From the NCBI GenBank assembly GCA_027619225.1, contig JAQCFW010000011.1:1-64000 (forward strand): a stretch of 64,000 nucleotides of DNA. The letters run 5' to 3'. The DNA is from Bacteroidota bacterium (GTDB lineage: Bacteria > Bacteroidota > Bacteroidia > Flavobacteriales_D > Sanyastnellaceae). Below the pieces are notes generated by a model, which was given only the letters and a program-made list of their open reading frames with translations, had not been told where the DNA came from and did not search any database. The position numbers were made by a program, and so were the translations under genes. This document shows, in pieces, positions 15,098-18,700 of this stretch (position 1 is the stretch's first letter; each line of letters starts with the position of its first letter).

Positions 15098-15394
15098 TTA
15101 TTCATTCAGGGAATATTCCCCTATTAAATATGTTGTTGCTATCAATAACAGAAGAAGACCAAAAGCGTTATAGTGATTAATTCTTTTACCTTCTAGAAAG
15201 TCTCTAATAGAATGACCGGGTCTTGTCATAAGTTCTTTTAATGAAAAAAAGAACCGTTTATTAATCACAAGGGCTCCATTCAAAATCCCATTGTCAAAGA
15301 AATGTTTCAAAGAAAATCTATGTATCGACGTTTTTTGGCCGCAAAATTCACAAAAGTTTTCTTCAGCAGAATTAGTACAATTTAAACATTTCAT
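15098..15394 (-). CDS. Short DUF3667-like protein
   Basis: 98 residues that match the start of DUF3667 proteins. There is a zinc ribbon (CLNC ... CEFCGQKT), then FSLKHFFDN, SLKELMTRPGHSIRDFL and EGKRINHYN, followed by one hydrophobic segment before the stop. The family is usually more than twice this length with several membrane segments, so this copy appears truncated after the first one (family length is known; truncation is inferred). It starts 6 bases after the stop of the upstream alpha/beta hydrolase gene. Confidence 0.7.
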   Translation of the reverse strand: MKCLNCTNSAEENFCEFCGQKTSIHRFSLKHFFDNGILNGALVINKRFFFSLKELMTRPGHSIRDFLEGKRINHYNAFGLLLLLIATTYLIGEYSLNE

Positions 15395-15400
15395 TAATGT

Positions 15401-16348
15401 TTAATCATCTTTTTTCAAAAATGAAAGAACAGCTTCTAAACTTTGATTTGGGCTCTCTTCCATTGGAACATGACCGACATTACTCAGAATAACTAAAGTA
15501 TCATTGGGCAAGTCACGATGAAACTTGTAGGCCTCTTCTACAGGAATCAGCAAGTCTTTTTCTCCCCACAGAATGAGTGTTCTTTGCTCGATTAATTTAA
15601 TATTATTGTGGGCAATTAAATCAGTTTGTGCCTTAAACTTATCAATAAAAGCCTGTCTATTTCCTTTCCTTAGCGCAAGTTCGAAATACCGGTCCACAAG
15701 CGCCTCTGATATTTTAGTTTTGTCAGCATATACATTTTCGACACTTGCTTTTACGACAAACCGAGGTGTGATAAATGTAAAAATATTTTTAACGAGAGGT
15801 GTCTGAGCGATCCGAAATGCCAAGGGAACACTCTTCGCTTCAGAGGGATAACCAGAAGCATCAATAAGGATCAATTTATCGACCATTTCGGGATATTTGC
15901 ATGTAAAATTCCACGCAATACTTCCGCCCAAAGAATTCCCACCAAGTACGCATTTATTTATTTCAAGGGAGTCTAAAAAGTCAGCAATAAAATCTACATA
16001 ATTGTCAATTGAATAATTCCTGTTTGGGAATGGTCCGGTAAGTCCGTAGGCAGGCAGATCCATTCTAACTACACGATGGTCCTGTTTTAATTGTGCAGTC
16101 CAATCATTAAAAGTATGCAGACTCGCAGCGGTTCCATGAATCAGAACAATGGGAATTGAATCTGGCGCATCTCCTTCATCACGAAAATGAACGTCCATTC
16201 CATTCACAGAAATGAACGTAGAGGGTGATGGTGCATATTTTGTCTTTAATTCTTCCAAAGGCTTGTCTCGATAACCGAAAAGTGATAAAATTAGAACCGC
16301 CAAAAAACAGATACTACAAAGAAATATTTTTATGATCTTGACCATCAA
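15401..16348 (-). CDS. Alpha/beta-fold hydrolase, membrane-anchored
   Basis: 315 residues. An N-terminal hydrophobic segment (about 3-23) probably anchors the protein in the membrane. The catalytic core shows the oxyanion HG (VLIHGTAAS), the nucleophile elbow GGNSLGGSIAW, the acid in WGEKDLLIP and the catalytic His in NVGHVPMEE. The substrate is unknown; the profile is that of a generic esterase/epoxide-hydrolase-like enzyme. It follows the DUF457 gene by 26 bases and precedes the short DUF3667 gene by 6, so the three form a likely unit within the accessory region. Confidence 0.9.
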   Translation of the reverse strand: MMVKIIKIFLCSICFLAVLILSLFGYRDKPLEELKTKYAPSPSTFISVNGMDVHFRDEGDAPDSIPIVLIHGTAASLHTFNDWTAQLKQDHRVVRMDLPAYGLTGPFPNRNYSIDNYVDFIADFLDSLEINKCVLGGNSLGGSIAWNFTCKYPEMVDKLILIDASGYPSEAKSVPLAFRIAQTPLVKNIFTFITPRFVVKASVENVYADKTKISEALVDRYFELALRKGNRQAFIDKFKAQTDLIAHNNIKLIEQRTLILWGEKDLLIPVEEAYKFHRDLPNDTLVILSNVGHVPMEESPNQSLEAVLSFLKKDD

Positions 16349-16374
16349 TTTAACTTGGTTTTTAATTTCTATAT

Positions 16375-17343
16375 CTAATTGTAAGATTGTCCTATACTTC
16401 CAGAAGTAAATTCTGTCGTTCCGTTTTGGATTGAAATTTCAAAATATCCTGCAGTCGGCACTTTTTTATCTCCGAATGTTTGGACTCCTCTCATATCAAC
16501 TTGTAAGTTATAAATTCTAATTTTCCCGAGTAGATTGTCAACTGTGTAAAATCCTTTGGCAAACCAACGCATTTTGTCAGCGACATTTTCATCAATTTCT
16601 TTTAAGTACTTTTCATTAATTGGAAATACTTCAATTGAATTGTTATTCTCAGATAGGATTGAATGCTTAAGCATATAAATATTTTCTTGCCCTTTTGCCA
16701 CACCATACCAATTGATATTTGCAATTCCCACTGGCATTGTTAATAATGAGCTGAACTCAATGTTTTCTTTAGCCATTCTTCTTGAAATTTCTTCATTTAC
16801 CTTTTCTTTATTTATGAGCGTAAACATTAAATAAAGCGAACTGATAATTATTCCACAATTATTAAAAGTTGATCTGTTAGGCTTTAATTTATAAATCCAC
16901 AGACTTAATAATAAGCCAATAAATAATGGTACAGTATAAATTGGATCCACAACATTTATACTATCTAAACCTAATCTTCGATCACTAAAAGGTAAAAAAA
17001 GTTGAGTCCCATAAGCTGTAAAAGTATCTAAAAGCATATGTGTAAAAAGACATAGCCAAGCAAACATTAGAAGGATTCTAAATTTGATACGTCTAAACAA
17101 TTTTATTTTACTTAAAAAGAATGCGACTATTAATGATCCAACTATACTGAAAGCTATTGAATGACTAAAACCTCTATGAATACGTAGCATTTCGAATTTA
17201 TCGTAGAATAAATACAGAGCTACATCAAGGTCTGGGATTGTTGCCACAACCGCTCCAACAACTGCACCTTTATTCCCTATTTTTTTTCCGAGAATAGATT
17301 CTCCAATTGCAGCTCCTAATAACCCCTGGGTAATTCTATCCAT
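16375..17343 (-). CDS. DUF457 membrane-bound metal-dependent hydrolase
   Basis: 322 residues. The N-terminus matches the YdjM/DUF457 family: MDRITQGLLGAAIGE, ATIPDLDVALY, HRGFSHSIAF and FTHMLLDTFTAYGTQLF. These carry the conserved Asp and His residues thought to bind metal. Several membrane helices occupy the first 170 residues, followed by a soluble C-terminal part. Family members are inner-membrane proteins, some linked to SOS regulation; the substrate is unknown. The gene is AT-rich, lacks a recognisable promoter box and follows the large inverted-repeat site at 17373-17587, as a cassette gene would. Confidence 0.9.
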   Translation of the reverse strand: MDRITQGLLGAAIGESILGKKIGNKGAVVGAVVATIPDLDVALYLFYDKFEMLRIHRGFSHSIAFSIVGSLIVAFFLSKIKLFRRIKFRILLMFAWLCLFTHMLLDTFTAYGTQLFLPFSDRRLGLDSINVVDPIYTVPLFIGLLLSLWIYKLKPNRSTFNNCGIIISSLYLMFTLINKEKVNEEISRRMAKENIEFSSLLTMPVGIANINWYGVAKGQENIYMLKHSILSENNNSIEVFPINEKYLKEIDENVADKMRWFAKGFYTVDNLLGKIRIYNLQVDMRGVQTFGDKKVPTAGYFEISIQNGTTEFTSGSIGQSYN

Positions 17344-17372
17344 TTTCTTTTCCCATTTTTTCTACTTGCCAC

Positions 17373-17587
17373 ATAACGGTTTTGTATAACGAAAGTGGCG
17401 ACTGGCGGCGCGCGTTCGGCTAGATTATCCCGCTTTGCGGGAGTGGAAGCGTCAGCGTGCGTTTCGGAGTGTCGGCAGAGTCGTTTGTTCGTTTTTATCA
17501 GATAGCAATTTACATAAATTGTAAGAGAAAACATTCTTTAACCATCTGTGCCAGCCATTTATGTTATACATTGTTAGAAGCCGTTAT
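17373..17587 (-). repeat. attC-like inverted-repeat site 2 (215 bp)
   Basis: ATAACGG (17373-17379) pairs with CCGTTAT (17581-17587), and TGTATAAC (17383-17390) pairs with GTTATACA (17563-17570). Both are perfect but have unequal spacers (3 against 10 bases), an asymmetry that recalls integron attC sites. The longer spacer holds GTTAGAAG (17573-17580), the inverse of the end of the site at 18.2 kb. A CCCGC-TTT-GCGGG hairpin lies inside at 17429-17441. The 240-base gap 17344-17583 contains nothing else that I can identify. The stop codon of the small lipoprotein gene (17584-17586) lies within the outer repeat. Confidence 0.55.
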
Positions 17588-18156
17588 TGAGTTTTTTGAG
17601 ATACTTCATTAGCCTTAAATTCTTTGAGACCTTGTATAGTTCCTTTAATACATTCACAAGGTGTTGTTCCTCCTTTCCTGGCATCTTCACAAGGCTTTTC
17701 AATTAATTCTGGCCGATTCTTTTTTATCCAATCCTCTGCTTCATAGTATACGTCAGGATCATTTGAGGATGTTTGAACAGATCGGATTTTTCTATCTTTT
17801 ATGATAATATGAAAAGTGTCCGTAACATTTAAATCTAATTGAAGTGCTCTCATTAGATCATTTTTTACTGTAACAGGACATATAACTAGCGAATCATTTT
17901 TTTCTACACCGTCAGCATGATTTAATACTTCGTAATTTCCACATTCTGCCCATTTCTGATAATACAAAATAGAAGGATGTGATTTTTCAGCATATGATAG
18001 CGATAATTTCAAAGAATCTTCATTAAATGAATAGAATGCATCAATAAACTTATTTGCTATTTCAACATTATCGTTTTGGTGAATATTAATTTCAGAGTTA
18101 GTTCGATTTGTACATCCAATAAATATTAGAATAGATAAGTAAAATATTTTCTTCAT
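17584..18156 (-). CDS. Small lipoprotein, cassette-like
   Basis: 190 residues from the preferred ATG (MKKIFYLSILIFIGC, with the lipobox Cys at residue 15). A start at 18213 would add 19 residues, but those lie within the recombination-type site and lack a signal sequence. The mature protein has a helical domain (ANKFIDAFYSFNEDSLKLSL), a DUF4864-like or NTF2-like appearance in the middle (VTDTFHIIIKDRKIRSVQT) and a Cys-rich end (KPCEDARKGGTTPCECIKG). I do not assign a function. It is flanked by 14-base imperfect inverted repeats (17573-17586 and 18183-18196, 12 of 14 matching), so it looks like one gene cassette. Confidence 0.7.
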   Translation of the reverse strand: MKKIFYLSILIFIGCTNRTNSEINIHQNDNVEIANKFIDAFYSFNEDSLKLSLSYAEKSHPSILYYQKWAECGNYEVLNHADGVEKNDSLVICPVTVKNDLMRALQLDLNVTDTFHIIIKDRKIRSVQTSSNDPDVYYEAEDWIKKNRPELIEKPCEDARKGGTTPCECIKGTIQGLKEFKANEVSQKTQ

Positions 18157-18188
18157 TGTTTTAATGTTTTTTGGTTTGGCTTTAATGA

Positions 18189-18248
18189 CTTCTAACACTA
18201 CGCTAAACAACAATGGTGTTTATCTGCTAATATAACGATTTGTTGGAC
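18189..18248 (-). repeat. attC/attI-like site 1 (60 bp)
   Basis: On the minus strand the site starts GTCCAAC (fits the RYYYAAC core) and ends GTTAGAAG (near GTTRRRY), exactly 60 bases including both ends, a typical attC length. It overlaps the last codons of the recombinase fragment. An AAACA/TGTTT hairpin lies in the middle. The end CTTCTAAC on the plus strand (18189-18196) is the inverse of 17573-17580. Confidence 0.5.
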
Positions 18249-18511
18249 TCCTTATCTTTATTGGGACCAGACCCCATGATGCGATCTAAGGGACTCGTTA
18301 TTTTGCGCAGGGAAGCATCAGAAATTTGAGTATAAATCTGAGTGGTCTTCAGGGATGAGTGCCCCAGCAAATCTTGAACGTACCTCACATCTGTGCCGTG
18401 TTCTAGCAAATGGGTTGCAAAACTGTGCCGAAGGGTATGTGGCGTGACTTTTTGTGAGACACCTGCTCTTTGAGCGGCCCGTTTGACGATATTTAATACG
18501 GAGGTGCCAAC
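18227..18511 (-). pseudogene. Tyrosine recombinase (integrase) 3' fragment
   Basis: About 94 codons with the complete C-terminal catalytic block of a tyrosine recombinase: [15 protein letters not shown], then [18 protein letters not shown] (HxxR), [17 protein letters not shown] (the second His and the nucleophile Tyr), ending in ITSPLDRI. A stop (18512-18514) lies just upstream in frame, and the usual 200 or so preceding residues, including the first catalytic Arg, are missing. The gene is therefore 5'-truncated. The TSPLD tail resembles those of integron integrases and XerD-like Bacteroidota recombinases. It is in the same orientation as the following cassette-like genes. Confidence 0.8.
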
Positions 18512-18580
18512 CTACGTTGGAGGAGTTTTTTAGAGTAGAGCTCAATCATTTCTTTTTGCATACTACATGATACAGTCACG

Positions 18581-18700
18581 ATGAAGATTGTTGACTTCGC
18601 TTTTGTAGATGATAGAAGTAAATTTATTTTCGTTGCTCGAAGGATGAACTATGGGGCACGAAAAGAGGTATTTATAAACAAGGATATTAAATCTTCCTGA
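18581..18700 (+). CDS. Possible 39-residue peptide
   Basis: An open frame begins MKIVDFAFVDDRSKF and ends INKDIKSS, filling most of the gap between the recombinase fragment and the carboxylase gene. The composition looks protein-like but there is no family match I know and no promoter box at the right distance. It may be a real small gene, a remnant of the recombinase-associated element, or chance. Confidence 0.2.
   Translation: MKIVDFAFVDDRSKFIFVARRMNYGARKEVFINKDIKSS

Follow-up and report, generated by a model that had tools for sequence, protein, structure and literature searches.

The window, by which we mean the whole stretch of 64,000 nucleotides that was analysed, carries on its minus strand, in this order, a recombinase pseudogene, a palindromic attI, an insertion point, one cassette and an attC-like site (Table 1). 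The genes around the site all lie on the minus strand.

Table 1. Features of the cassette locus, with positions in the window.
Feature	Position	Strand	Remarks
Recombinase pseudogene	18227..18561	-	Short N-terminal start (ATG 18561), out of frame with C-terminal third at 18230-18511
attI-like imperfect palindrome TAAACA...TGTTTA	18204..18222	.	About 5 bases past recombinase stop
attI core GTTAG	18192..18196	-	Putative insertion point 18196 (G) / 18195 (T)
Cassette 1	17377..18195	-	TTAGAAG through G of next GTTR
Cassette gene, short lipoprotein-like protein	17584..18156	-	ATG 18156; listed TTG start 18213 inside attI
attC-like site	17371..17585	-	R'' motif AACn6YAAC to 17585; variable GC-rich loop; cut 17377/17376
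R'' box	17573..17580		Shared with relatives; motif to 17585
L'' box	17563..17569		Shared with relatives
L' box	17384..17390		Shared with relatives
R' box	17371..17377		Shared with relatives
YdjM-family membrane protein gene	16375..17343	-	PF04307, E 8.4e-34; directly after R'

The pseudogene matches Pfam Phage_integrase (E 6.1e-8), and its C-terminal fragment ends in ...TSPLDRIM. Against family profiles, this fragment gave nearly equal scores with XerD (2.3e-29) and with the integron integrase model TIGR02249 (2.8e-29), so the fragment alone does not tell which of the two it belongs to. The lipoprotein-like cassette gene had no Pfam match at E ≤ 0.001. The YdjM-family gene is either a second cassette without its attC or the first fixed gene; an attC was looked for after its stop and not found, and a survey of YdjM across the family gave no synteny information. 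The window has one site only, not an array of two or more. As the adjoining recombinase is a pseudogene, the cassette in the window is probably fixed, but three further, more distant tyrosine recombinase matches in the same genome (C23, C22 and C1) make action in trans conceivable.

The initial annotation had described the site as a large asymmetric inverted repeat. The outer pair, ATAACGG at 17373-17379 and CCGTTAT at 17581-17587, and the inner pair, TGTATAAC at 17383-17390 and GTTATACA at 17563-17570, are present with the unequal spacers of 3 and 10 bases, and the CCCGC-TTT-GCGGG hairpin lies at 17429-17441. The interior is, as claimed, richer in GC (47.7% in 17391-17562) than the neighboring genes (31.8% in 16375-17343 and 30.3% in 17588-18155), but this holds for its left part only (56.6% in 17388-17500, 31.7% in 17501-17560). 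Nested inverted pairs of 8 and 7 bases occur four times in the window, where 40 dinucleotide shuffles average 3.0, so the bare pattern does not rise above chance. Coincidence probably accounts for most of the outer pair; judged by the boxes that relatives share, the outer arms named at first are not the R boxes.

What does stand above chance at this site is the plus-strand fold and a strict cassette rule, defined below, which is satisfied once in the 64 kb. Folding of each strand, one of the checks proposed in advance, gave z = -2.96 for the plus strand, with none of 200 shuffles folding as well, and z = -1.88 for the minus strand, with 7 of 200 as good. It had been held against an attC-like reading if the sequence were single-copy and had no relatives. 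It is single-copy in its own genome of 2.03 Mb, where the 215 bases gave one match at E ≤ 0.001 and, as a pattern with three mismatches allowed, seven places, the other six all at three mismatches (five in the control). Its relatives, by contrast, abound under the cassette rule.

Among these relatives the cassette follows a consensus, with GTTRnnnnnnATT at its start and AACnnnnnnYAAC at its end: ten matches between the cassette start and its own R'', one fixed difference, then two more matches. The strict rule is this start/R'' consensus with one mismatch tolerated in the ten bases. In the window, the cassette start GTTAGAAGTCATT is the reverse complement of its own R'' GTTAGAAGCCGTT, with 9 of 10 bases complementary and the difference at position 11. 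This is the single strict link found, at the 17373-17587 site; the reversed sequence gave none.

Recombinase matches were present in three of the 11 same-genus stretches examined. In G777, a recombinase remnant lies beside the same carboxyltransferase gene as in the window, and attI is common to both up to GTTAG, with a different gene thereafter. In G780, beside the same carboxyltransferase gene, a recombinase stretch is 92% identical where it matches the window fragment; its open frame of 250 amino acids is cut by the contig end, which falls inside the recombinase. G754 has, on another contig, an open recombinase frame of 293 amino acids (to the stop), 75% identical where it matches the window fragment and with 91 amino acids from GIR to HTLRH by hand count. 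Its palindrome is the same as that of the window, with the contig stopping at GTGTT, and the palindrome in G777 is nearly the same. The insertion point in Table 1 is based on where G777 identity stops, at the GTTAG core with another gene beyond, and on the end of the G754 contig. G775 lacks 15109-18678 and has 22 other bases between the shared edges (the similarity runs to 15108 and sets in again at 18679). A short DUF3667-family frame of 98 amino acids (15098-15394, minus strand), probably a truncated gene, lies at the edge of this missing stretch.

The absence in G775 and the comparison of G777, G754 and G780 imply that the element has been gained or lost at this locus and that attI is the seat of the differing genes. 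The same-genus genomes support insertion at attI.

A first pattern scan with TTGTATAACGNAAGTGGC, one mismatch allowed, over 395 genomes gave matches in 10, including the window. In the nine others, one match (L014, same class) was judged site-like and the remainder chance matches in genes or unrelated DNA. A group II intron (RF02001, RF00029) comes immediately after the L014 site. Some group II introns target attC, and the L014 arrangement is reminiscent of them.

A scan for the R''-L'' arm over 84,980 species genomes yielded 60 loci, many of which, judged by eye, belong to a single close family of Flavobacteriaceae sites. Strict links are absent from 20 of the 60 loci; 40 have at least one and 31 at least two. 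On the other strand, the relatives read R''-short spacer-L''...L'-spacer-R'; a gene ends before the site and a gene starts after it, and sequence conservation among the sites ends at GTTR.

In G480, of the same order, an intact recombinase has 18 cassettes behind it in a stretch of 14.5 kb. After GTT, the cassette starts match their own R'' at 102 of 108 positions. None of 10000 shuffled pairings reached this value (mean 52.4, maximum 77), and R'' agrees with the start of the next cassette at only 56 of 102 positions. In 15 of the 18 cassettes, the recombinase strand bears the longest ORF, which mostly starts and stops near the cassette borders. The L and R arms are paired in 95.4% of cells, and they carry compensatory changes: 16 cells with double changes compared with 5.3 in shuffled pairings (0 of 500 as high), and none in slid versions.

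Strict links numbered 83 in 579 kb around recombinases (4 in the reversed sequence) and 118 in 443 kb of the Flavobacteriaceae pattern loci (0 reversed); both counts include some cross-pairs. A relaxed chain finder was dropped. It gave links in reversed sequence too (3 in L113 and 2 each in L119, L127 and L129), and for this reason we relied on the strict rule alone.

In a rule-free test, position 11 agreed in 0 of 54 and 2 of 145 links, whereas positions 12 and 13 agreed in 49 and 50 of the 54 and in 128 and 129 of the 145. At phage loci (those with the best 80 of 572 recombinase matches), position 11 agreed in 7 of 151 links. Canonical IntI arrays (8 loci) gave 24 links, all from 5 loci, that agree over ten bases; past base ten, the agreement fades (17, 11, 9 and 9 of 24). 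In 130.5 kb of these canonical arrays, there were no strict links and no position-11 rule. Wherever a locus had at least two links with the A/G difference, they pointed one way (10 of 10, 28 of 28 and 21 of 21 loci).

Recombinase, attI and cassette are adjacent in some of the relatives. Of 40 relatives, 16 have a strict cassette start no more than 125 nt from the recombinase stop, compared with 175 of 2901 control windows; the other 24 do not show it. In 22 of these 40, a palindrome with arms of at least 7 is present no more than 110 nt from the stop, compared with 323 of 3297 control windows. Several of the recombinase genes stop at contig ends, as repeat arrays would cause.

For the joined, circle-like form of the site, the bottom strand is predicted to be more stable than the top strand in 41 of 42, 75 of 78 and 48 of 48 sites in three sets. 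The site in the window behaves in the same way when joined (predicted -33.8 kcal/mol for the bottom and -28.4 for the top strand) and in place (-31.8 for the bottom, here plus, strand and -25.7 for the top). The position-11 mismatch is A.C on the top strand and T.G on the bottom strand. It was considered as the cause of the strand preference and rejected: with 10-base arms, the mean predicted difference is -3.6, -3.1 and -3.3 kcal/mol compared with -3.9, -3.4 and -3.7. The shortened arms keep most of the difference, and position 11 therefore contributes a minor part of the predicted energy.

The recombinases of these arrays lack I2. The window's own fragment begins past the I2 region, so that the absence is read from relatives: an insertion as in IntI2 is absent from 25 of 25 aligned ones. 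All eight array-type relatives match TIGR02249 in two stretches, with 178-228 bits against a cut-off of 265; the stretches printed end at 177-179 or start at 241, leaving a gap of about 60 model positions. Their best NCBIfam model is XerA_Arch (NF040815), with six of the eight above its cut-off. The spacing from GLR to HxLRH is 91-94 amino acids in 27 of 29 I2-less rows (the other 2 mis-measured by the motif), 133 in 13 of 20 IntI rows (7 mis-measured) and 98 in 6 of 9 Xer rows (3 mis-measured). At phage loci it is 86-102 in 77 of the 80 measured, which are the best 80 of 572 matches. A Persicobacter plasmid (L166, CP012852.1) has an array-type recombinase in a 364-amino-acid frame and two related frames of 324 and 309 amino acids ending in SPLDTLYGRR; the 324-amino-acid one has a spacing of 91 and no I2.

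In trees, the array recombinases are separated from the Xer branch with 100/100 support and lie near IntI, which forms a group of its own (100/100). The best tree has the I2-less recombinases as a grade with IntI inside. An AU test does not reject a single clade of all I2-less recombinases (p = 0.352), so the tree does not establish that IntI arose within the I2-less group; the order of IntI and the I2-less recombinases is likewise not settled in a tree with phage and same-genus rows. The G754 and G780 recombinases group with three other I2-less relatives (95/99). Both trees were made without the L167 integrase, which looks shortened in the alignment, and the tree with phage and same-genus rows also without 8 IntI rows and a Persicobacter row on a long branch.

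The modelled core of an array recombinase matches XerA best and IntI second among known structures. The AlphaFold model (pLDDT 66, residues 8-96 unreliable) is uninformative on the N-terminal domain. Recombinases of the L117 type (alignment A2) have a conserved N-terminal region of about 110 amino acids, without significant Pfam match, which is present in 67 of 295 class genomes. This extension was rejected as a hallmark: the same-genus and most phage recombinases begin without it, and the count of 67 in 295 therefore misses members that lack it.

Cassettes of this kind also occur in phage-database contigs. Among phage-database contigs with related recombinases, 38 of the best 80 (of 572) hold strict links, and these 80 loci gave 89 strict links in 977 kb compared with 2 in the reversed sequence. 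The phage-contig links listed and the recombinase lie on opposite strands. With L028 as the query, a protein scan of viral_contigs gave no match. Polaribacter phage P12002L has 3 strict links (control 0). IntI1 has been reported to recombine an attC of this phage (PMC9892861); the attC tested there is not equated here with any of the 3 links.

On Acinetobacter plasmids (L169, NZ_OR095731.1; L317; L316), the recombinase adjoining tet(X3) groups with the I2-less recombinases. The portion of the tet(X) literature consulted writes this arrangement as xerD-tet(X3) (PMC7494873). After the recombinase gene come a palindrome and a cassette start that resembles the rule, and tet(X3) has an R''-like motif behind it. 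With 3 of 10 positions differing between start and end, the pair falls outside the strict rule. On an E. coli plasmid, the bases that follow tet(X4) are, as judged by eye, nearly complementary to those at the start of tet(X3). Judged from these sequences, tet(X) may be a former cassette of the I2-less system. That a plasmid gene labelled xerD belongs to the I2-less group is relevant to the route by which tet(X) escaped from its flavobacterial source.

We consider it very probable that the site in the window is the attC-like 3′ end of a cassette captured at the attI of a now-broken integron-like platform. An attC-like, strand-selective site had been suspected from the unequal spacers, and this was right in kind: the R''-L''...L'-R' layout, the G^TT cassette boundary, the complementarity with the cassette's own start and the better-folding bottom strand all agree with it. 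In detail, it is no canonical attC, the partner enzymes being I2-less recombinases. The single complete cassette in the window and the lack of a functional recombinase beside it count against our explanation. Related bacteria and viruses carry longer, seemingly intact versions of the system.

In working relatives, an I2-less tyrosine recombinase of the IntI/Xer superfamily would cut at G^TTR in the folded cassette end, which would then be joined to the G^TTR at the palindromic attI adjoining the recombinase gene, and cassettes would thereby stack in one orientation. We infer that such recombination involves a folded single strand: the enzyme would act on the bottom strand, cutting at the G^TT phosphodiester, and the product would be resolved by replication, as in known integrons.

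Several features of the system could also be explained by conventional, Xer/dif-like recombination of double strands at short sites, with the inverted repeats as by-products or binding arms. The array recombinases are without I2, the insertion whose helix in IntI docks the extrahelical bases of folded attC according to PMC7790495; attI in the relatives is a short palindrome that could serve as a double-strand core; and the modelled core is closer to XerA than to IntI. Yet the L arms covary, the bottom strand is consistently the more stable one, R'' pairs with its own cassette start over ten bases and further, and the branch between Xer and the array recombinases has full support. We therefore regard this explanation as unlikely, if still the most serious one.

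A canonical, I2-bearing IntI might instead move the cassettes in trans while the adjoining recombinases do another job. Canonical IntI is above the cut-off in 84 of 296 genomes of the phylum, and IntI1 did act on the P12002L site in the experiments described in PMC9892861. Against this, the class of the window, presumably Bacteroidia, accounts for only 1 of 85 genomes with strong IntI matches (a figure given without the share of the class in the sample), an I2-less recombinase lies directly at attI in the arrays examined, and canonical arrays show neither strict links nor the position-11 rule; action by IntI is very improbable. Slightly less probable still is an intergenic regulatory hairpin, a terminator or RNA structure without any recombination: the site does lie between two same-strand genes and folds stably, but the absence of an Rfam family in the window speaks against it, and it leaves unexplained the own-start complementarity, the layout recurring between unrelated genes and the attI shared with G777. 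A miniature inverted-repeat element, the other possibility raised in the initial annotation on account of inverted ends and a GC content unlike that of the neighbors, can practically be dismissed, since the genome holds one copy, the site recurs in relatives as a recombination site between unrelated genes, and the mobile unit there is the gene plus its site, not the site alone.

The preferred reading, an attC-like cassette end at a broken platform, can be compared with known systems. With canonical integrons, the system shares cassettes in one orientation, the G^TTR boundary, a hairpin site of R''-L''-L'-R' boxes, own-start complementarity (the 24 links in 5 of 8 canonical loci) and a platform recombinase adjoining attI; the bottom strand folds better in I2-less arrays, as for attC in the account of PMC9892861. 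The recombinases differ in having no I2 insertion, attI is palindromic and lies downstream of the recombinase gene in many I2-less relatives, the cassettes in bacteria are co-directional with the recombinase, and their fixed position-11 mismatch is followed by two matches. Thus attC boxes with the G^TTR boundary, complementarity to the own R'' and an attI beside an integrase gene are as in canonical integrons, while a recombinase of the IntI family with I2, its additional domain, is lacking, as are at least two attC in the window (G480 has 18).

The phage attC clusters of P12002L (PMC9892861) are likewise cassette sites in a flavobacterial phage; IntegronFinder and IntI1 were used, and the part of that work dealing with these sites names no I2-less partner recombinase. 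XerC, XerD and XerA have the catalytic core in common with the array recombinases, with XerA_Arch as the best NCBIfam model and XerA as the best structural match, but the array recombinases branch off from same-order Xers (100/100) and go with cassette arrays and no dif site. A Xer/dif module (IMEX) would depend on a chromosomal Xer; the array recombinases stand apart from 9 Xers (100/100). In the passages of PMC8138268 on the integron-like subgroup of tyrosine recombinases, members without the insertion are not tied to cassette arrays.

I2 has been presented, in the relevant section of PMC7790495, as the integrase innovation that enabled recombination of folded single strands. By this criterion, a recombinase without I2 falls outside the IntI family, though it is integron-like in its working. 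We regard the system as a new integron variant without I2. In the full-text literature, preprints and closed journals lying outside this scope, we found neither a description of I2-less integrons in Bacteroidota nor a recombination assay of this recombinase family. More tentatively, at somewhat below an even chance, we suggest that Bacteroidota and their phages hold an I2-less integron family near the IntI root, which would move folded cassettes by other means, with the conserved polar position-11 mismatch taking part in strand choice, and which would have kept the ancestral state that gave rise to canonical integrons once I2 was acquired.

As far as the section consulted goes, the only complete integron that IntegronFinder 2.0 reported for Bacteroidetes proper is that of Salinibacter ruber (PMC9024848). 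Current finders thus appear to miss this gene-capture system of the Bacteroidota. With cassette arrays run by I2-less recombinases, the question of how integrons arose would become accessible to direct tests.
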